Source: Psychromonas sp. B3M02 (GTDB taxonomy: Bacteria > Pseudomonadota > Gammaproteobacteria > Enterobacterales > Psychromonadaceae). Taken from it: 64,000 nt of DNA. Both the position numbers and the translations under genes were made by a program. Under the pieces are notes generated by a model, which was not told where the DNA came from, ran no database searches, and was given only the letters and a program-made list of their open reading frames with translations. The stretch covers positions 1-64,000 of the forward strand of contig NZ_QOCB01000144.1 of NCBI RefSeq assembly GCF_003318165.1. The letters run 5' to 3'. Of the stretch, positions 8,478 through 20,196 are shown piece by piece (the first letter of the stretch is position 1; the number at the start of each line of letters is the position of its first letter).

Positions 8478-8630
8478 TCCTTAAAGGTGTTATTGTGATA
8501 TAAATACAATTTAAAGTTCCTTTTAAGGTGTTTTATGGATTCTTATTTGTTTTTCTTTTAATGTATGTAATAATCCTTTTAAGGATTTTAATTTCTTAAA
8601 TTGAATATAAACAATCTTTTAAGGTGTCTT
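8478..8630 (+). promoter_or_regulatory. Operator-like repeats before the hipB-type gene
   Basis: Four versions of a CCTTTTAAGG-type motif: TCCTTAAAGGTGT (8478-8490), TTCCTTTTAAGGTG (8517-8530), ATCCTTTTAAGGAT (8573-8586, an inverted repeat) and TCTTTTAAGGTGT (8615-8627). The last contains the hipB ribosome site. HipB-type antitoxins repress their own operon by binding several inverted repeats, so this is the likely operator array. The copy at 8517 is followed by an ATG and an eight-codon open frame (8535-8561), which mirrors the true gene start. Confidence 0.6.
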
Positions 8631-8966
8631 ATGGTATTTGGTGACTTAACACCACATGCTATCGCTGCGGAACTTGGTGATAGGATTAGAACTGCTCGGC
8701 TTAATGCTAACCTCACTCAAAAAGCCGTTGCCCAAAAAGCGGGGGTGTCGCTTAAGGCCGTGACCAATTGTGAAAAAGGCAAGTCAACGCTTGAGTCTAT
8801 GGTCGCTATCCTCATCGCGCTTGAAATAACTGAACAATTAGACGCCTTTATCCCTAAACAAGAAATATCGCCAGTTCAGCTTATCGAATTAAAAGGGAAG
8901 GAACGCAAAAGGGCTGCTAGCCCCACTAAGCATAAATCGGCAAAAGAGGAGACTCCAGAATGGTAA
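8631..8966 (+). CDS. HipB-like antitoxin, XRE-family DNA-binding protein
   Basis: A 111-residue protein with an HTH of the XRE/Cro type (residues about 13-65: LGDRIRTARLNANLTQKAVA, KAGVSLKAVTNCEKGKS). The C-terminal tail is charged and Lys-rich. Start at the ATG 8631, behind AAGGTG, is preferred over an in-frame TTG at 8601 that has no ribosome site. It overlaps the downstream hipA-type gene by 7 nt, so the two are translated together. It should neutralise the kinase toxin and repress the shared promoter. Confidence 0.85.
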   Translation: MVFGDLTPHAIAAELGDRIRTARLNANLTQKAVAQKAGVSLKAVTNCEKGKSTLESMVAILIALEITEQLDAFIPKQEISPVQLIELKGKERKRAASPTKHKSAKEETPEW

Positions 8967-10279
8967 CTGAAGTCATTAAAGTCAAATACAAAGAGCACGA
9001 TGTAGGCGCTGTCAGTTATAACACTGATACACAAACGGGGGCATTTGAGTATTTTCCAAACTTTATCAAAACAGGTATAGAGTTATCACCTATCAAAATG
9101 CCACTAGCAACAAAAGTATATTCATTTCCTCACCTTGATCCCGCCACCTTTAAAGGCTTGCCTGGACTGATAGCTGATTCATTACCTGATGATTTTGGTA
9201 ACGCCGTAATGAACGCGTGGATCGCCAGCCAAGGCAAACTAACCAGTGATATTACGCCTTTACAACGTCTACAGTACACAGGCACACGCGGAATGGGCGC
9301 ATTAACATACTCTCCCGCGACAAGAAGAAAAAACCTCAATGCCTCGCAACCTATCGATATCGAATCTCTTCTTTCAATTGCCCAAGAGATATTAGATAAA
9401 CGCGCTCAATTTGAAGTGCAACTAACCGATAGCGGACAAGAAAACAAAGAAGCAATGATGTCTTTAATGTCGGTTGGTATGAGTGCTGGTGGGGCTAGGC
9501 CTAAAGCGGTGCTGGCATTTAATAAAGATTTTACACAAGTTCGTTCAGGCCAAACTGATGCACCCGATGGCTTCAAACATTATCTCATGAAGTTTGATGG
9601 GGTGAATGAGCATAATAAAAACCAAGAAACCTTCGGTGACCCGATGGGTTATGGCGCAATGGAATACACATATTATTTGTTAGCGAAGCAATGTGGCATC
9701 GACATGATGCCATGTCATTTACTCAATGAAGGTAAACGAAGACACTTCATCACTGAAAGGTTTGATCGCAAGGGGAATGACAAAATTCACGTTCAAACAC
9801 TGAATGGCCTTGAACATGTAAGCTACAAGCAAATAGGCTCATATTCCTATGCAGAACTATTCAGTACCGCTAGGAAGTTAAAGCTAAGCCCTGACGATGC
9901 AATGCAATTATTTAAGCGAATGGTGTTTAATGTCATTGCTCGAAATCATGATGATCATGCCAAGAACTTTGGCTTTTTGTTAGATCAACATAATCAATGG
10001 CAGCTAGCCCCAGCTTATGACCTTGCATACAGTTACAAGCCTGACAGCCATTGGGTAAGCAAACATTGGATGACACTAAACGGAAAGCAAGATAACTTCA
10101 CAAGAGATGATTTTTATAGCTTTGAGAAACTGAGTCCCATCTTTAATAAACGCAAGATAGATGAAGTCTTAAACCATACTATCGAAGTCGTATCACAATG
10201 GGAGCAACTCGCATCAGAACAAGAGGTGCCAAGCTTACTCATCAAAGAAGTCAGTAAGAATTTAAGAGTTATGCTGTAA
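8960..10279 (+). CDS. HipA-like serine/threonine kinase toxin
   Basis: A 439-residue HipA-family protein. The N-terminal HipA_N subdomain has GLPGLIADSLPDDFGN near residues 64-79. The motif GMSAGGARPK at about 172-181 corresponds to the regulatory loop that carries the autophosphorylated Ser in E. coli HipA. The kinase core keeps ARNHDDHAKN near 324-333 (catalytic loop) and APAYDL near 350 (metal site). E. coli HipA phosphorylates glutamyl-tRNA synthetase; the target here is unknown. All catalytic motifs are present, so the toxin looks functional. The pair sits just outside the tRNA-Pro-flanked segment. Confidence 0.88.
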   Translation: MVTEVIKVKYKEHDVGAVSYNTDTQTGAFEYFPNFIKTGIELSPIKMPLATKVYSFPHLDPATFKGLPGLIADSLPDDFGNAVMNAWIASQGKLTSDITPLQRLQYTGTRGMGALTYSPATRRKNLNASQPIDIESLLSIAQEILDKRAQFEVQLTDSGQENKEAMMSLMSVGMSAGGARPKAVLAFNKDFTQVRSGQTDAPDGFKHYLMKFDGVNEHNKNQETFGDPMGYGAMEYTYYLLAKQCGIDMMPCHLLNEGKRRHFITERFDRKGNDKIHVQTLNGLEHVSYKQIGSYSYAELFSTARKLKLSPDDAMQLFKRMVFNVIARNHDDHAKNFGFLLDQHNQWQLAPAYDLAYSYKPDSHWVSKHWMTLNGKQDNFTRDDFYSFEKLSPIFNKRKIDEVLNHTIEVVSQWEQLASEQEVPSLLIKEVSKNLRVML

Positions 10280-13121: not shown

Positions 13122-14867
13122 ATGCCTAATAGTTTTTATAACCGAAATGCACAGCAATTGGCTGACATGTACCTTTCAAAAACCTTTGAACAAGTCCATG
13201 ATTGTTGGCTTAGCTATCTGACGCCTATTTTGAATAAAAAAGAGGCGCGCATTTTAGATATCGGTGCAGGGGCTGGGCGAGATAGCCAATACTTTGCAGA
13301 ACAAGGCGCAGCTAATAATATCTCAGTCACAGCGATCGAGCCTGCATTAATGTTAGCGGAGCTTGGTAAAAAACATACGCAAGGTTTGAACATAAACTGG
13401 TTACAAGATTCACTTCCCGACCTCAGCGTTGTTACGCGTAAAGAGATCAGCTTTGACCTTATCTTATTGAGTGCAGTTTGGATGCATATTCCTGATGCAC
13501 AACGCGCACGTTCATTGCGAAAACTGGCTAATTTATTAAAGCCTGGTGGCCTATTAGTTATTTCATTACGTCATGGTGAAAGTGGCGATGAACGTAATAT
13601 GTATGAAGTATCTAGCGATGCTTTAGTACAAATGTCTACAAAGCTCGGCCTATCTCCGTTATTAATCACAGATAAAAAGCCCGATGCGATCGGCAGGGCT
13701 GATGTGTTATGGCAAACGGTTGTATTAAAACTACCAGATGATGGTAGTGGCGCATTTCCATTTATTCGTCATGTCGCATTGAATGATGGAAAATCTGCAA
13801 CGCACAAACTAGCGTTAATGCGCGTGTTATTACGGATAGCAGATGGTCAACCAGGTGCAGTTATAAGACGAGAAGACAATAGAGTTATTTTACCTGTTGG
13901 ATTAGTGGCTCTTTACTGGGCACATCAATATAAAGATTTAATCGATAAACATCAGTTATATCAAACCCCTAATAAAAATAGAAACATGGGCTTCATGAAA
14001 GAAGATGGCTGGCATAAATTAACACACCTGTCATCATCAGATTACCGAATCGGGAACCTATTTCAAGGAGAGCAAGCAATAGCAATGCATAAAATGCTAT
14101 CTGCAAGTGTCGCTAACATCAAAAACATGCCCTGTAAGTATATTACTTTCCCTAATAGTTCTGAAAGTGTATTCGAAGTGAGCAGTAAATGTGTACGCGC
14201 TAAAGACAGTTTATTTTTAGACTTAACTACCTTAAAACATTGGGGCGAATTTTCATTACCTGAACATCTATGGATTGCTTTTAGCCGTTATGCCTGTTGG
14301 ATTGAACCTGTATTAGTTTCAGAATGGACGAAAACCATGGCGGGTTATCAAGGCAATCGCCAATATAAAGACCCAGAGCAACAATATAAATTAGTGAATG
14401 CATTGAATTGGTTAGAAGCAAAGCGCAGTACCACTGAAGTCCGAAACCGTTTTGAAACGCTAAAAAAACAGAATAATAACCAACACAACTGTGTTTGGAC
14501 AAATAAAACCTTAAATAAACAATACGCAATTGATCATTGCATGCCATTTGCACGTTGGCCTAATAATGACCTATGGAATTTATTACCTAGCGATGTTACT
14601 GCGAACGGACAAAAGAGCGATCGTTTACCTACAGAACATAAGATGAAAAATGCGAAAACACGTATTACAAACTGGTGGCAAGATGCATGGTTAACTGATG
14701 ATTCAATCGATGTTAATCGTGAAATGAATCAACAGCGTTTTTTCGCTGAAGCGAATATCGCCTTACCAGGGTTAGCAGCCAGTAATAATTCAGTCGATGA
14801 TCTTTTTGAAGCTTTGTTATTACAAAGAGGGCGTTTGAAAGAGATGCAGCAGTTGAGAGAGTGGTGA
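13122..14867 (+). CDS. SAM-methyltransferase fused to an HNH nuclease
   Basis: A 581-residue protein. Residues about 1-200 are a class I SAM-dependent methyltransferase: motif I LDIGAGAGRDSQYF near 46-59, an acidic residue at the end of strand 2 (IEP), and FDLILLSAVWMHI. The middle (about 205-450) is not recognised. It may be a DNA-recognition or scaffold domain. The C-terminal part holds an HNH-type nuclease motif: CVWTNKTL near 454, DHCMPFARWPNNDLWNLLP at 470-488 and a following N..KSDRLP. The domain order, a modification domain joined to a nuclease, is reminiscent of restriction-modification. The methyltransferase lacks an obvious (N/D)PPY motif, so DNA need not be the substrate. The gap to the next gene is 50 nt, so it likely heads the ABC-3C-like operon. 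Confidence 0.75.
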   Translation: MPNSFYNRNAQQLADMYLSKTFEQVHDCWLSYLTPILNKKEARILDIGAGAGRDSQYFAEQGAANNISVTAIEPALMLAELGKKHTQGLNINWLQDSLPDLSVVTRKEISFDLILLSAVWMHIPDAQRARSLRKLANLLKPGGLLVISLRHGESGDERNMYEVSSDALVQMSTKLGLSPLLITDKKPDAIGRADVLWQTVVLKLPDDGSGAFPFIRHVALNDGKSATHKLALMRVLLRIADGQPGAVIRREDNRVILPVGLVALYWAHQYKDLIDKHQLYQTPNKNRNMGFMKEDGWHKLTHLSSSDYRIGNLFQGEQAIAMHKMLSASVANIKNMPCKYITFPNSSESVFEVSSKCVRAKDSLFLDLTTLKHWGEFSLPEHLWIAFSRYACWIEPVLVSEWTKTMAGYQGNRQYKDPEQQYKLVNALNWLEAKRSTTEVRNRFETLKKQNNNQHNCVWTNKTLNKQYAIDHCMPFARWPNNDLWNLLPSDVTANGQKSDRLPTEHKMKNAKTRITNWWQDAWLTDDSIDVNREMNQQRFFAEANIALPGLAASNNSVDDLFEALLLQRGRLKEMQQLREW

Positions 14868-14917
14868 TGTTTTCTGCTTTTTAATAATAATTATTTATAC
14901 AATAGGTAATCAAATAG

Positions 14918-15835
14918 ATGATCCATACTGATATTGGCCCTTTAGATGGCGATAAGTGGGAAGGCTTAATCCAATCTGTATTTAAACAAAAATACGATAC
15001 CTATCAAGATATGGTGGCTTCTCCTGGTGATCTTGGTATTGAAGGCTTTGTAATCAACGAGGGGATTATGATCCAATGTTATTGCCCTGATGAGCATTAC
15101 GATACTAAGACACTTTATGAGAAACAGCGCGACAAAATCACTGCGGATATAAAAAAATCATCAACTAATGAAACAGAAATATTAAAGCATATTGGTGATA
15201 CTAAGATCTCGCAATGGTTATTTATAACGCCAAGAATAGCAAAACATGAAATACATGCTCATGCTCGAGTTAAAGAAAAAGAAATTAAAGCAGCTGAAAT
15301 TTCCTTTATATCAAATGATATTCAAATACTTGTAAAAGACCTCGGACATTATATTCAAGAAATCAGGCAACAGCAGATTATTAATGGTGTACAGCTGAGT
15401 TTTTCTAGTGCTAATGGCGAAGTTATAACTGAACCAGAACTAACTACCGAATATGATGTAAACATTCAAGATAAGAATAGAGTCCGTAGTTTTATTAGAG
15501 ATACTTACAAACCCCAAAATCACTCTCGCCTTAATGATCTAACTAAAAAATTCTATCTGGATGGCTATGAGATTTTGAGACGTATCTTTAATCAATCTCC
15601 AGAGTTATATGAACGTATTGCAAAGTTAGTTAATAACTTTGAAGCTGATGTCGAAGAAGTATCTATGTCTTGGGAAGATAGTCCACAAAAGTTAGTGACA
15701 CGCGTTCAAGAAATGCTAATTGAACGATTTGGAAAAGATGCTCATATATCAACAATTGAACATGAGGATTTAGTTTCTATTACCAAGCATATGGTGGCGA
15801 AGTGGATTGCAGAATGCCCTATGAGGATTGAATAA
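14918..15835 (+). CDS. Putative effector of ABC-3C/Lamassu-like system, Mrr/PD-(D/E)XK-like
   Basis: A 305-residue protein. Its first 70 residues follow the Mrr/restriction-endonuclease-like pattern: helix (KWEGLIQSVF), then GDLGIEGF, then a strand MIQCYCP. The classical third residue, the Lys of QxK, is replaced by Tyr/Cys. A conserved-looking YEKQRDKIT helix follows and may supply the basic residue. The C-terminal two thirds are helical and unrecognised. It overlaps the next gene by 1 nt (TAATG). In ABC three-component systems the first gene commonly encodes the effector, so this is inferred to be the nuclease or other toxic arm activated by the ATPase complex. Confidence 0.6.
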   Translation: MIHTDIGPLDGDKWEGLIQSVFKQKYDTYQDMVASPGDLGIEGFVINEGIMIQCYCPDEHYDTKTLYEKQRDKITADIKKSSTNETEILKHIGDTKISQWLFITPRIAKHEIHAHARVKEKEIKAAEISFISNDIQILVKDLGHYIQEIRQQQIINGVQLSFSSANGEVITEPELTTEYDVNIQDKNRVRSFIRDTYKPQNHSRLNDLTKKFYLDGYEILRRIFNQSPELYERIAKLVNNFEADVEEVSMSWEDSPQKLVTRVQEMLIERFGKDAHISTIEHEDLVSITKHMVAKWIAECPMRIE

Positions 15836-16287
15836 TGAGCAAGTTAAGCTTTTGTCGTAAGAAGTCAGCAGTAGTCCCCGAATTACGACCAATGTACAAA
15901 GTGGCAAAAATATTATTGATTTTAAAGCTTGGGTGCACAGGAGGGAAAGTTAGCTTATTAAAAATGCATCTATTCAACTGGGCGATGCTAGATCCACAGC
16001 GTTTACAGGCGTTAAAACTTTCAGCTGAAAAGAAAGAGTTATTAATAGGTGTTTGGGGTATAGACCCTTCGTTAAATATGGCGCTTAACTATGCTACTTC
16101 CGAAGGTTTACTTAGAATAACGTCAAATGGTTCATATCAATTAACAGGTAAGTCAGAACATTTTATTTTGGAAACTAAACTTTTGGAATTATTTGATACG
16201 GAAACTGAAGAACTAAATAACATAGCAAAAAAAATAACAGAAACAATGGTGAGTCAAGCAGCTAAAAGGTGGGTAGATGAAGTTTAA
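15835..16287 (+). CDS. Putative middle component of ABC-3C/Lamassu-like system
   Basis: A 150-residue protein placed between effector and ATPase, overlapping both (1 nt upstream, 11 nt downstream). It contains a winged-helix-like segment (VSLLKMHLFNWAML, LNMALNYATSEGLLRI, SYQLTGKSEHFI) that matches the size and predicted fold of the middle component of ABC three-component systems and of LmuC in Lamassu. In those systems it bridges the SMC-like ATPase and the effector. The sequence alone would not identify it; gene order and fold pattern together do. Confidence 0.6.
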   Translation: MSKLSFCRKKSAVVPELRPMYKVAKILLILKLGCTGGKVSLLKMHLFNWAMLDPQRLQALKLSAEKKELLIGVWGIDPSLNMALNYATSEGLLRITSNGSYQLTGKSEHFILETKLLELFDTETEELNNIAKKITETMVSQAAKRWVDEV

Positions 16288-18370
16288 TCAATTATTTGTA
16301 AAACTCTCAGGTTCAGACAATCAAGAGTATGGATATCGAATACCATTTAGCTCTGGCCTGAATATTATTCGAGGAGACAACTCATCAGGAAAGAGTACAT
16401 TCGTGAATTCTTTAATTTATGCACTTGGTATGGAAGAAATCATTGGTTCGAAGGGTAATACTAGTCTACCTTATGCGCTGAAAAATAAATTTGATTTAGA
16501 TGGCGTTAATATACTAGTTCATAATTCTGTAGTGTATTTAGAGTTAGAAAATAGATTAGGTACAGTTATTACGCTAAAGCGAGTGATTAAATCTGATGAT
16601 ATTGATACCAAGTTGATTCAGGTTCTAGAAGGTGCGTACTTAACCGATAATTCTTTAACTAATATAAAAAGCCAATATACTTTTTTGCATGATGCTGGTT
16701 CTGCACAAGACGAGGAAAGAGGATTTTTTGCGTACCTAGAAAGCTTCTTAGGTTTAAAATTACCATCCCTATCTGATAATAAAGGTAAAGAGACTAAACT
16801 ATATCTACAATCTGTTTTTTCTGCTTTGTTAGTCGAACAGAAACGTGGGTGGACTGATTACATCGCTAATATTCCATATTACGGAGTAAGTGGTATGAGA
16901 GAGAAAGTGGGAAGCTTTTTACTCGACTTGGATATATTTAGGAGTGCTAAGAGTCTTAATGATTTGCAATTGCAGCGTTCTAAAATTATGTCCGATTGGT
17001 CTGAGGTAGCTACTGAAGTTAAAATTATAGTAGAGGGAAACTACTTATCGGTGTCGGGAATTAGTAAAATACCGCCTATAGATTTTGATCCAAAGCTAGT
17101 TTCTATTGTAGAAAGCAAAGGTGCCGAAACTCGGTCTCTTGAAGCTATAAAAGAAGACATAAAACATGAGATGTTTGAGGTTATTCAAAATGAAAAGGCT
17201 GAACTGTCTGATGAATCAACCGCTCTAGTTACAAGCATTGAATCAGTACAAAATAGAATTGATGAACTATTGAACATGCAAAGTATGTGCAATAGTCAAA
17301 TCAAGATAGATGAGTCACAACTTAGTCAATATTTTGAAAGCCTGAAAAGCATAGATAAAGATTTAAAAGCTAATAAATTAACAGAAAAACTTGTTAAATT
17401 TGGAGCAGATGAAGCTGAATTAGATTTTGCAAAGGGAAAATGCCACACCTGTTTAAATCCTATAGACGACATTTTAATATCTCCTGATAGCATGGCAATG
17501 CCAATGTCACTCCAAGAAAATATTACTCACCTACGCAATCAAAAAAAGATGATTGAGTCTTTACTTAATGGACTACAAAAAAATATAGAAAGAAATAAAG
17601 GACAACTGTTAACTATAAACCGAGAAGTAGTTAAATTCAGGAAAGAATTAATTTCATTGAAACGAGATATCAAATCAACAACTCATATTAAAGAAATAGA
17701 TATTAGAAGAAAAATTACATTAGAAAATAGACAAGTGGAGCTAAGTAAACTTGATTCGAAGTTGAAAAGTAGTCTTGAAATTCTAACTACTTTAGCTTTA
17801 GATTATAAAAAGTTAAACGCTACTATTACAGATTTATCTAAGTTCGGCTTTACTTATAAAGACAAAAATAAAATAAATGAATTTGCTAATGAATTTAGAA
17901 CATTAGCAACAACGTTTGGTTACCGTAGTGCAAAAGTTGATGATATAGAAATAAAACCTGAAACTTTGCTTCCTTATTTACAAGACCTTGAGTTAAGAGA
18001 GCAAATGGATACGCCGTCCGAATATAAGAAAAAGTTTGGTGAAAGTAGTACAGATATTAAGTCAGATTCATCTGCAAGTGATTTTGTAAGGCTAATTTGG
18101 TCTTATTTGATATCTCTATATAAAGCATCTTCTAAGTGTGGAGGAAATCATCCAGGTATGATTTTATTTGATGAACCTGCGCAACATTCAATGAGTACCA
18201 AAAGTGTCAATAAGATGCTTAATCTATTATCTACAACACAGGGATTGCAGAGTATTGTCGCAGCATCATTTGATGAAAATGACGAAACTTATGCATCATC
18301 AGTTGCAGGATTAAATGCAAATAACTTTAAACTTGAGCGTTTACCTAGAAAAATTGTAGCTAAAATATAG
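16277..18370 (+). CDS. SMC/Rad50-like ABC ATPase of ABC-3C/Lamassu-like system
   Basis: A 697-residue ATPase. Walker A RGDNSSGKST is near residues 32-41 and Walker B MILFDEPAQHSM near 628. Between them two long coiled-coil stretches flank a CHTC motif near 388, like the zinc-hook/hinge apex of Rad50 proteins (only one CxxC, so dimerisation would complete the site). The ATPase signature region before Walker B (SDSSASDFVRL) is divergent. Such ATPases sense aberrant or invading DNA and release the effector. It is much more A/T-rich than the suf genes nearby, as expected for a mobile defence gene. Confidence 0.8.
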   Translation: MKFNQLFVKLSGSDNQEYGYRIPFSSGLNIIRGDNSSGKSTFVNSLIYALGMEEIIGSKGNTSLPYALKNKFDLDGVNILVHNSVVYLELENRLGTVITLKRVIKSDDIDTKLIQVLEGAYLTDNSLTNIKSQYTFLHDAGSAQDEERGFFAYLESFLGLKLPSLSDNKGKETKLYLQSVFSALLVEQKRGWTDYIANIPYYGVSGMREKVGSFLLDLDIFRSAKSLNDLQLQRSKIMSDWSEVATEVKIIVEGNYLSVSGISKIPPIDFDPKLVSIVESKGAETRSLEAIKEDIKHEMFEVIQNEKAELSDESTALVTSIESVQNRIDELLNMQSMCNSQIKIDESQLSQYFESLKSIDKDLKANKLTEKLVKFGADEAELDFAKGKCHTCLNPIDDILISPDSMAMPMSLQENITHLRNQKKMIESLLNGLQKNIERNKGQLLTINREVVKFRKELISLKRDIKSTTHIKEIDIRRKITLENRQVELSKLDSKLKSSLEILTTLALDYKKLNATITDLSKFGFTYKDKNKINEFANEFRTLATTFGYRSAKVDDIEIKPETLLPYLQDLELREQMDTPSEYKKKFGESSTDIKSDSSASDFVRLIWSYLISLYKASSKCGGNHPGMILFDEPAQHSMSTKSVNKMLNLLSTTQGLQSIVAASFDENDETYASSVAGLNANNFKLERLPRKIVAKI

Positions 18371-18504
18371 ATTCTGTAATCACCGCTAATTAATTACTCC
18401 ATGTAATAAGTATTTTGGTATTGGGGCTTCAACTTTAGACTATTATTAGAGTTAGGATTTTTATTGATTTTGACAAAAATAATCTAACTGCACTAAGGTT
18501 TTAA

Positions 18505-19375
18505 ATGGATTTAACGACACAAGTTTTTAACGCACTATCTCTGTACTGGTATATTCTGCCACTTTTTATTTTACCTGTTGTATTAAAGTCGGCTTGGTTT
18601 AAAGGCATATTAGGTGAATTTTTGGTTAACTTATTACTCACCAAATTTTTACCAAAAGAGCGCTATACCTTAATTAAAAATGTCACTTTACCAACGGACG
18701 ACGGAACAACTCAAATTGATCATATTGTGGTGTCTGAGTTTGGCTTGTTTGTGATTGAAACTAAAAATATGAAAGGCTGGATTTTTGGCTGTGCCAATCA
18801 AAAGCAATGGACGCAAAAGATTTTCAAATACACGGGTAAATTTCAAAACCCACTTCATCAGAACTATAAACATACGCAAACATTAGCGAGTTGTTTATCA
18901 ATACCAAATGAACTGATTTACTCTGTTGTGGTTTTTGTTGGTGATAGTACTTTTAAAACCAAAATGCCTGAGAATGTTACCTACGCGAGAGGATGTGTGG
19001 AGTACATTAAATCTAAGCAAGCCGTGCACTTTACGAAAGAAGAAGTTAGTAGCCTTATTGCTGAGATTGAAGAGGGGCGTTTGACACCTAGTTTGAAAAC
19101 AAACTTAGCGCATAATAAACATGTGAAAACTATTGTTGAAAGCAAAGCGGAGCCCAGAGAAATAACCAAGCAAGTATATGAAAGTAAAGTAAAGTAAAGT
19201 AGAGCCTAAAGAAATGCTTAATCAGGGGCTTGAAATACAAGAGGGCGTAGAAAAATCCTGCCCCAAGTGCGGATCTGAAATGGCATTAAGACAAGCCCAA
19301 AAAGGTAAGTATGTTGGTAATCAATTTTGGGGATGTACTAATTTTCCAAAATGTAGAAAAGTGATAAACCTATGA
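18505..19375 (+). pseudogene. NERD-domain nuclease with topoisomerase-type zinc finger, frameshifted
   Basis: Residues 1-230 run to a TAA at 19195-19197. They contain an N-terminal hydrophobic segment (about 11-30) and a NERD nuclease-related domain with the PD-(D/E)XK signature TQIDHIVV and VIETKN (about 70-90). The stop lies inside four tandem AAAGT units (19181-19200). In the +1 frame the sequence continues with KVEPKEML, then a C4 zinc finger (CPKCG ... GCTNFPKC) ending at TGA 19373-19375, which is the usual C-terminal partner of NERD. With two repeat units instead of four the whole gene would be one open frame, and the peptide ESKVEPKE would echo ESKAEPRE just upstream. So it is a recent repeat-expansion frameshift, perhaps reversible. 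The N-terminal product may still be made. Confidence 0.75.
19181..19200 (+). repeat. AAAGT pentanucleotide tandem repeat (4 units)
   Basis: Four perfect AAAGT units within the NERD coding region, exactly where the reading frame is lost. Removing two units restores the frame into the zinc-finger part. Removing one or adding one does not give an open frame, because the repeat itself then contains an in-frame TAA or joins the wrong frame. Confidence 0.9.
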
Positions 19376-20196
19376 TTAAAAATGCATTCACTAAGTATAT
19401 TAAAGCAACTAATATCACTGGAAGCCAAAAAGCAAATTCGTATATTAAAGCGCTTGATATTTTAAGTTTGCTTATTGAACACGAGCCGTTTGGTTTTAAT
19501 GATTGTAAAGATATTTGGAAGGTAGAATCTATTGAACGCCTGTATCAGCTTTATGTTTTCGTTTTGCAACAGAGTAAAAATAAAGATAATAATTTATGGG
19601 TAATTCATAATGTTCCTAAAAGTTATTTAGCTAATGGTTTTTGTTCTGCAGCATTAAAGTCTTTTATGACATTTTTGGTTGAATTCAAGTATGAGAAACG
19701 TTTACTGGATAATGTGAACGAAGAAGGTACTCAGATTCCAATTACTTTAAAATACCCAAGTTGTTTACTAGATGGCTTTGAGTATGCCGAAGGGCGTGAT
19801 GTTGTTAGAGAAGTAAACGTTCGAACTAACCAAAATGTATTTAGAAAAGTAATACTTGATATTTATAATCAATCTTGTTGTATTACGGGTATAAATATAC
19901 CAGAAGTAAATAGAGCGAGTCATATTGTGCCTTGGGCTGAAGATAAAACAATGCGCTTAGATCCTACTAATGGTCTTTGTTTATCAGCAACCTACGACGC
20001 TGCATTTGATAATCATTTAATTAGTTTAGATGATGATTACCGAATAATTATAAGTAAAAATATCAAGGACTATTATACTTCGAACAGTGTAAATGAGTAT
20101 TTTATTAAAAAACAAGGGATGCAAATAGACTTACCAAATACCTTCAAACCTAATAAGCATTTTTTAGACATTCATCGTAATAGTTGTTGTTTATAA
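19372..20196 (+). CDS. HNH endonuclease
   Basis: A 274-residue protein with a C-terminal HNH domain: CCITGIN near 170, SHIVPW at 182-187, RLDPTNGLCLS, then DAAFDNHLISLDDD. This is the restriction-type HNH arrangement in which SHI..W supplies the first His and NGL..S...D the rest. The first 110 residues are helical and unrecognised, perhaps for target recognition. Its ATG overlaps the stop of the zinc-finger end of the NERD gene (ATGA at 19372-19375). The two are therefore translationally coupled when the NERD frame is intact. The frameshift upstream may reduce its expression. Confidence 0.78.
   Translation: MIKNAFTKYIKATNITGSQKANSYIKALDILSLLIEHEPFGFNDCKDIWKVESIERLYQLYVFVLQQSKNKDNNLWVIHNVPKSYLANGFCSAALKSFMTFLVEFKYEKRLLDNVNEEGTQIPITLKYPSCLLDGFEYAEGRDVVREVNVRTNQNVFRKVILDIYNQSCCITGINIPEVNRASHIVPWAEDKTMRLDPTNGLCLSATYDAAFDNHLISLDDDYRIIISKNIKDYYTSNSVNEYFIKKQGMQIDLPNTFKPNKHFLDIHRNSCCL

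Follow-up and report, generated by a model that had tools for sequence, protein, structure and literature searches.

The 581-residue protein encoded by a single open reading frame of Psychromonas sp. B3M02 (positions 13122-14867 of the window, forward strand, ATG start; the window is the whole 64,000-nucleotide stretch of DNA that was analysed) is tentatively interpreted, with slightly less than even confidence, as the fused version of a modular, restriction-like unit of defence that combines a constant SAM methyltransferase with an exchangeable DNA nuclease. The gene would be self-contained, and we hold with the same caution that its place before a Lamassu operon in a defence island is incidental. 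Its features are as follows.

13122-14867, forward strand: methyltransferase-HNH fusion gene (581 aa; 343 relatives in genome contigs)
13122-13730, forward strand: class I SAM methyltransferase "head", residues 1-203 (Pfam, Foldseek, tree and DNA junctions)
13254-13283, forward strand: motif I, LDIGAGAGRD, residues 45-54 (unchanged or almost unchanged across the 116 fusions)
13470-13490, forward strand: motif-IV region SAVWMHI, residues 117-123 (W120 in 116/116, H122 in 115/116; no (N/D)PPY)
13731-14411, forward strand: basic, mostly α-helical domain, residues 204-430 (pI 9.0; candidate DNA-binding or recognition domain)
14412-14864, forward strand: HNH_4 nuclease, Cas9-HNH-like, residues 431-581 (Pfam, fold search and conservation)
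14532-14615, forward strand: HNH signature DHCMPFARWPNNDLWNLLPSDVTANGQK, residues 471-498 (D471, H472, N486, N495 and K498 in 115/116)

The three-part architecture of methyltransferase, uncharacterized middle domain and HNH nuclease that a preliminary description of this DNA had proposed is borne out by Pfam, with a middle domain of about 227 residues in place of the claimed 250. Methyltransf_25 covers residues 44-143 (E 4e-14) and HNH_4 covers residues 464-503 (E 2e-6), each above the curated cut-off, with no Pfam family reaching its cut-off between them. The middle region is predominantly all-α and confidently modelled; an AlphaFold structure of the protein built from a 51-member alignment reached pLDDT 91. 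The nearest solved folds of the methyltransferase domain are small-molecule and tRNA enzymes (UbiG, METTL6, CmoM and FPP-methyltransferase; Foldseek), and none of the 50 listed matches for the fusion is a DNA methyltransferase. Because the methyltransferase dominated the full-length search, the C-terminal half was modelled separately (pLDDT 92, pTM 0.91), and its matches are weak and mainly to Cas9-type HNH domains. The middle domain found no counterpart in the PDB, nor any in the viral set (BFVD) beyond HNH proteins; it is homologous to the N-terminal part of the separate HNH_4-type partners discussed below. No PADLOC model covering the fusion was found. The PADLOC mad2 profile matches the SAM core alone (6.5e-17), and membership in MADS was rejected, as this match is generic and no MADS gene set occurs among the neighbours scanned.

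Both active sites are strongly conserved across 116 non-redundant fusion proteins. The SAM-site residues Gly48, Gly52, Arg53, Asp54, Glu73 and Asp96 occur in all 116 and Asp46 in 115, and the five HNH residues listed above, each in 115 of the 116, are conserved far beyond chance; loss of HNH conservation had been named beforehand as a finding that would count against the enzyme, and by this measure the catalytic residues of the nuclease in the window are intact. The preliminary description had also remarked that an (N/D)PPY motif was not evident, and indeed the motif-IV region reads LSAVWMHI. Neither (N/D/S)PP(Y/F/W) nor a C5 PCQ-type motif is present in the fusion protein, and no target-recognition domain is visible in it. 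As a result of the missing motif, identity as a DNA amino-methyltransferase was rejected. Of the proposal that this is a self-contained modify-and-cut enzyme, then, the conservation of both sites stands and the expectation of a DNA-type motif does not, and on the sequence evidence it would still be the best reading.

The modular nature of the unit is most apparent from its two-gene forms. In these, a methyltransferase of approximately 200 residues, up to 76% identical to that of the fusion, is often followed directly by a separate HNH gene (L134, L135, L137, L138, L139, L143, L144, L148, L149 and L196), at a spacing of -1 to +17 bp, with one at +80 bp. The partners in L137, L139, L144, L148, L149 and L196 are of the HNH_4 type and are homologous to residues 204-581 of the fusion (hhalign 98.8%, E 9e-17), and the fusion is thus the two-gene unit joined. 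The HNH_2-type partners in L134, L135, L138 and L143 showed no match to the fusion half by profile comparison. Instead, their N-terminal 140 residues match a sulfur-binding domain (SBD; PDB 8h0l, 1.6e-40) and their C-terminal part an HNH endonuclease (PDB 6yex, 1e-34), which places them with the phosphorothioate-dependent restriction enzymes. A third kind of partner, an HKD helicase (HKD-SF2; PADLOC mREase_IV), follows the methyltransferase in L146 and L199.

That these arrangements interchange is evident from both the tree and the DNA. A tree of 143 methyltransferase domains requires at least 10 changes of the fused state on well-supported branches. Within one genus, the methyltransferases of L138 and L139 are identical at 196 of 204 positions (96%) and are followed by unrelated nucleases, SBD-HNH and HNH_4, respectively; the upstream flanks share 88-89% DNA identity, which ends between +601 and +613, the end of the methyltransferase. 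Likewise, the methyltransferases of L149 (two genes) and L155 (fusion) agree at 189 of 204 positions, with DNA identity that begins near -240 and ends near +600, and L134 and L135 carry methyltransferases that are 96% identical beside SBD-HNH partners that are only 43% identical. Residues 1-203 are, by the tree and these junctions, the module held constant between fused and two-gene forms. Taken together, the upstream region and methyltransferase appear to form the constant piece and the nuclease the replaceable one, and this pairing of the same methyltransferase with swapped, unrelated DNA nucleases is what appears to be new here.

The nuclease half, for its part, is seldom found alone. Residues 204-581 are present at full length in 28 copies among 149 relatives, every one attached to the methyltransferase (one of them, in G065, bearing an in-frame stop), no full-length copy stands by itself, and the C-terminal pieces that lack a methyltransferase are short remnants or distant HNH matches; methyltransferase-only reading frames, on the other hand, are common. 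Such a pattern would be expected if the nuclease were harmful without its methyltransferase, although a fused gene cannot easily drop its front half and fusion as such accounts in part for the lack of nuclease-only copies. Distant relatives of this half that lack the methyltransferase do occur in cyanobacteria, Deinococcus and Hymenobacter, and in L233 an HNH_4 partner lies in a dnd locus without it, so that any such protection is not universal. On Nostoc and Hymenobacter plasmids (L225 and L227), these relatives are preceded by a small protein, annotated as DNA-binding in L227, that may be a different partner. An instance of the opposite loss is seen in L136 (G021), where a gene at 8586-9359 encodes 257 residues in which residues 1-220 are joined to the last 32 or so, the nuclease having been deleted and the methyltransferase kept, upstream of an MzaC-like (Z1) gene and associated genes.

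These features suggest a mechanism in which the methyltransferase would methylate host nucleic acid, be it DNA or DNA bearing another modification, the basic all-α domain would bind DNA, and the HNH domain would cut DNA marked as foreign by its methylation state. Methylation would thereby shield self DNA and, as proposed, explain the absence of the nuclease half where its methyltransferase is missing; the unit would presumably act against phages. Self-marking is favoured since a constant methyltransferase serving unrelated nucleases is hard to reconcile with a private protein contact, and a shared substrate, DNA, is the easier explanation. The partners, namely SBD-HNH, the HKD-SF2 helicase and Dnd-associated HNH proteins, belong to the modification-dependent type of DNA nuclease, and the methyltransferase-only copies found in prophages, including those of E. 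coli, are as expected of a protective orphan methyltransferase. Against self-marking, a DNA-methyltransferase motif and target-recognition domain are absent, the fold relatives act on small molecules or tRNA, and the methyltransferase half, with a pI of 6.9, is close to neutral, such that nucleic-acid binding is not obvious. Methyltransferase-only genes of E. coli phage and prophage genomes (L038, phage phi458, 2917-3519, and the viral loci L120-L128) lie convergent with a PAPS reductase-like gene, as read by eye, and are candidate anti-restriction genes.

A broader formulation, possible but on balance doubtful, is that of a restriction-like class in which a constant methyltransferase head that is not of the DNA type recombines with fused HNH_4, separate HNH_4, SBD-HNH or HKD-helicase nucleases, self being recognized through a methyl mark readable by any of them and placed, perhaps, on an unusual acceptor connected with phosphorothioate or otherwise modified DNA.

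A constant head joined to variable effectors is also the architecture of CBASS and Thoeris. Lamassu is built along the same lines (PMC10586767). By this analogy, the methyltransferase may instead sense infection, through a fall in SAM or a substrate made or modified by the phage, and release the nuclease for local DNA destruction or abortive infection, an alternative that we consider rather unlikely. It would accord with the resemblance of the methyltransferase to small-molecule and tRNA enzymes, and with Arg130 and Arg133, which are invariant across 51 aligned fusions and, together with Lys134, variable among the methyltransferase-only proteins, as would fit a contact between the halves. However, a single signal would call for a domain common to the partners, and none is recognizable between SBD-HNH and the fusion half; moreover, the catalytic methyltransferase residues are all kept, and a pure sensor leaves the common methyltransferase-only copies unexplained.

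The unit has a possible connection to phosphorothioation: one type of partner is an SBD-HNH, and the methyltransferase has Dnd genes as neighbours in L039, L145, L148 and L196 and Ssp genes in L231 and L106, the last of these loci carrying a fusion. In L148 (7792-16942), the genes run in one direction as methyltransferase, HNH, dnd_rel_methyl, DndB, DndC, DndD and DndE; in L106 (9965-17490), the fusion adjoins the SspD, SspC and SspA genes; and in L145, the HNH beside the methyltransferase and Dnd genes looks split. This link is suggestive. Only two of the eight dnd loci among relatives carry the methyltransferase. Dependence on host phosphorothioation was rejected: dndC and sspD are absent from the host genome, and dndC from the sampled fusion-bearing relatives, so the fusion does not need it. 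Assignment of the middle domain as an SBD was likewise rejected for want of both profile and fold support, the window protein giving no profile match to the SBD-HNH alignment and no SBD appearing among the fold matches listed.

The same neighbourhoods bear on a further alternative, that the methyltransferase marks foreign or already modified DNA (phosphorothioated, for example) for destruction by a modification-dependent nuclease. The partners are type IV-like nucleases and Dnd or Ssp genes adjoin the methyltransferase in the six loci above, yet the proposal appears improbable. Of 149 genomes, 8 have dndC, and neither the host nor any sampled fusion-bearing relative is one of them (a weak point, the expected overlap being about 1.5), the fusion half resembles an SBD by neither profile nor fold, and an enzyme of 200 residues with no visible domain for the purpose would have to discriminate its target DNA.

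In genome contigs, the 343 confirmed relatives are found in Gammaproteobacteria and also in Desulfuromonas, Acidobacteria, cyanobacteria and Binatia. Even sampling of 369 gammaproteobacterial genomes gave 17 with the methyltransferase, about six of them with the fusion. It occurs in nearly all sampled members of a Moritella-type genus (family f2; identity about 70%), and its occurrence in the genus of the host is patchy, with decayed copies. The fusion stands alone in hundreds of genomes amid changing neighbours. A co-oriented neighbour lies within 100 bp downstream in 22 of 82 low-GC fusion loci as compared to 17 upstream, a distribution that marks the fusion as mostly a solo gene and led to rejection of a strong operon bias.

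The defence-like setting named in the preliminary description is upheld by what surrounds these genes. MzaC lies beside the fusion in L155 and Dsr2 beside the two-gene form in L135, Dcm-type cytosine methylases are among the neighbours of the methyltransferase, fused or not (PADLOC), and 13 of 105 fusions and 4 of 22 methyltransferase-only genes have mREase_IV (PADLOC; the HKD-SF2 helicase) at most 6 kb away. Further neighbours, read by eye, include WYL-type regulators, RhuM, Vsr and a type I-F cas operon (L158). Near neighbours matched 281 PADLOC families and far neighbours 29, a comparison that counts families and not proteins and is supportive only. In all, the location of the fusion in defence islands beyond background is supported, within the limited statistics of such matched counts. 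In the window itself, a HipA-family kinase gene (8960-10279; Pfam HipA_C 5e-51) lies on the upstream side of the island.

HNH domains also occur in homing enzymes. A housekeeping or selfish gene, made up of an ordinary methyltransferase and a gene-spreading HNH domain and lacking any role in defence, would be conceivable, and would suit the near-universal occurrence in the Moritella-type genus. This is quite improbable given the frequent decay and absence within the host's own genus, the co-localization with defence genes and the repeated pairing of one methyltransferase with unrelated nucleases.

Downstream of the fusion in the window lie three genes that form a Lamassu operon, LmuA-LmuC-LmuB (14918-18370), followed by two further nuclease-type genes.

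14918-15835, forward strand: LmuA, the Lamassu effector (PADLOC 2e-28; neighbour, outside the unit)
15835-16287, forward strand: LmuC, the middle component (PADLOC 9e-22; neighbour)
16277-18370, forward strand: LmuB, an SMC-like ATPase (PADLOC 5e-98; neighbour)
18505-19197, forward strand: NERD nuclease-domain protein (Pfam NERD 1e-32; conserved with congener L153)
19372-20196, forward strand: HNH_2 protein (Pfam HNH_2 6e-12, PADLOC HNH 2e-45; conserved with L153)

The preliminary description had called the three downstream genes ABC-3C-like and, from their close spacing, suggested a four-gene system. The spacing is real and the genes are now identified as Lamassu; membership of the fusion did not hold. 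The fusion and LmuA share a strand across a 50-bp gap that contains no terminator-like site. A similar order recurs in L218, where the fusion lies 45 bp upstream of an Lmu operon of a different subtype from that of the window, and probably in L041, where an ABC-3C-like effector gene adjoins the fusion with an overlapping start (read by eye, with no profile). Of the loci brought up by a search with the fusion, the window alone has LmuA, LmuB and LmuC beside it. A reverse survey that looked for LmuB across 346 genomes of the order found the fusion before one of six other intact Lamassu operons (L218, which, having come from the Lamassu search, gives no unbiased count of the fusion). The intact operons of L216, L217, L219, L220 and L221 have no fusion upstream, nor do those of the plasmid loci L223 and L224, for a total of seven other intact Lmu loci without the fusion versus one with it; that of L217 is nearly the same as that of L218.

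The congener L153 carries the fusion (88% DNA identity to that of the window) and the NERD/HNH_2 pair (89% over window 18467-20194) without a Lamassu cassette, other genes separating the two. Between the same two conserved flanks, the window holds the Lamassu cassette (14869-18466) and L153 a NERD-like gene and a 158-residue gene (L153:10612-12353). This position is an exchange site within the island and Lamassu is an exchangeable neighbour. A 64-bp stretch near the start of the HNH_2 gene (window 19396-19459) recurs right after the fusion stop codon in two congeners (L153:10622-10685 and L152:8753-8816), perhaps as a remnant of an earlier HNH_2 gene. Lamassu also decays in this genus, as L222 (G022:C1:48479-48760) is a broken piece of LmuB that is 65% identical to that of the window.

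A four-gene system in which the fusion is a functional subunit of LmuA-LmuC-LmuB is thus rejected by neighbourhood surveys from both sides and is very improbable indeed, Lmu genes being absent from nearly all fusion loci, the fusion from five of six other intact Lmu loci in the order and from both plasmid loci, the L218 subtype existing without the fusion (L217) and other genes taking the place of Lamassu in L153. That homologs mostly lack the downstream genes counts against the four-gene system and leaves the fusion standing as a defence-type gene.

If the modular self-marking reading is true, hundreds of genomes carry a restriction-like unit that is unnamed in current defence libraries, and methylation that serves SBD-HNH, HNH_4 and HKD-helicase nucleases would be an unrecognized type of self-mark. 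The recombination of the same methyltransferase with unrelated nucleases provides a natural swap experiment. No description of the fusion or of the nuclease swap was found in the literature searched, from which subscription papers were mostly absent, and novelty is provisional to that extent.

Several known systems share parts of this unit. Lamassu or ABC-3C genes adjoin the fusion in the window and in L218, but constitute a separate system of which the fusion is not a regular component. The Cas9 HNH domain (Pfam HNH_4) is the best fold and profile relative of the nuclease part, although the RuvC domain and guide-RNA machinery of Cas9 are not seen in the fusion protein. Nucleases of the HNH, HKD and SBD types beside Dnd genes are described in passages of PMC10853773 that do not mention the constant methyltransferase. 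A methyltransferase and HNH pair heads the Dnd operon of L148, and Ssp genes adjoin in L231 and L106; the host and the sampled fusion-bearing relatives, however, lack dndC and the fusion exists independently. SBD-HNH enzymes of the ScoMcrA/SprMcrA family are phosphorothioate-dependent type IV restriction enzymes (PMC7461809, which mentions no methyltransferase partner). The two-gene form in L134, L135, L138 and L143 uses such an SBD-HNH, whereas the nuclease half in the window is not SBD-like.

The HNH endonuclease 3 of E. coli NILS69 is type IV-like, blocks phage and plasmid, and has its activity limited by methylation (PMC12409345). Limited in this way by neighbouring methyltransferases, it may serve as a working precedent for self-marking, though it differs in comprising three genes, with two methyltransferases on the opposite strand, and is cited here as an analogy. 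Similar in organization are the type II and IIG restriction-modification systems, in which a methyltransferase and nuclease likewise share one operon or polypeptide (here the fusion, or two genes at -1 to +80 bp) and, as within this clade, the nuclease half is not retained once the methyltransferase is missing. The fusion departs from them in having neither a DNA-methyltransferase catalytic motif nor a target-recognition domain, and a constant methyltransferase whose partners bear different DNA-reading domains appears to be a misfit to sequence-matched restriction-modification: in place of a matched pair, one methyltransferase would here serve unrelated nucleases.
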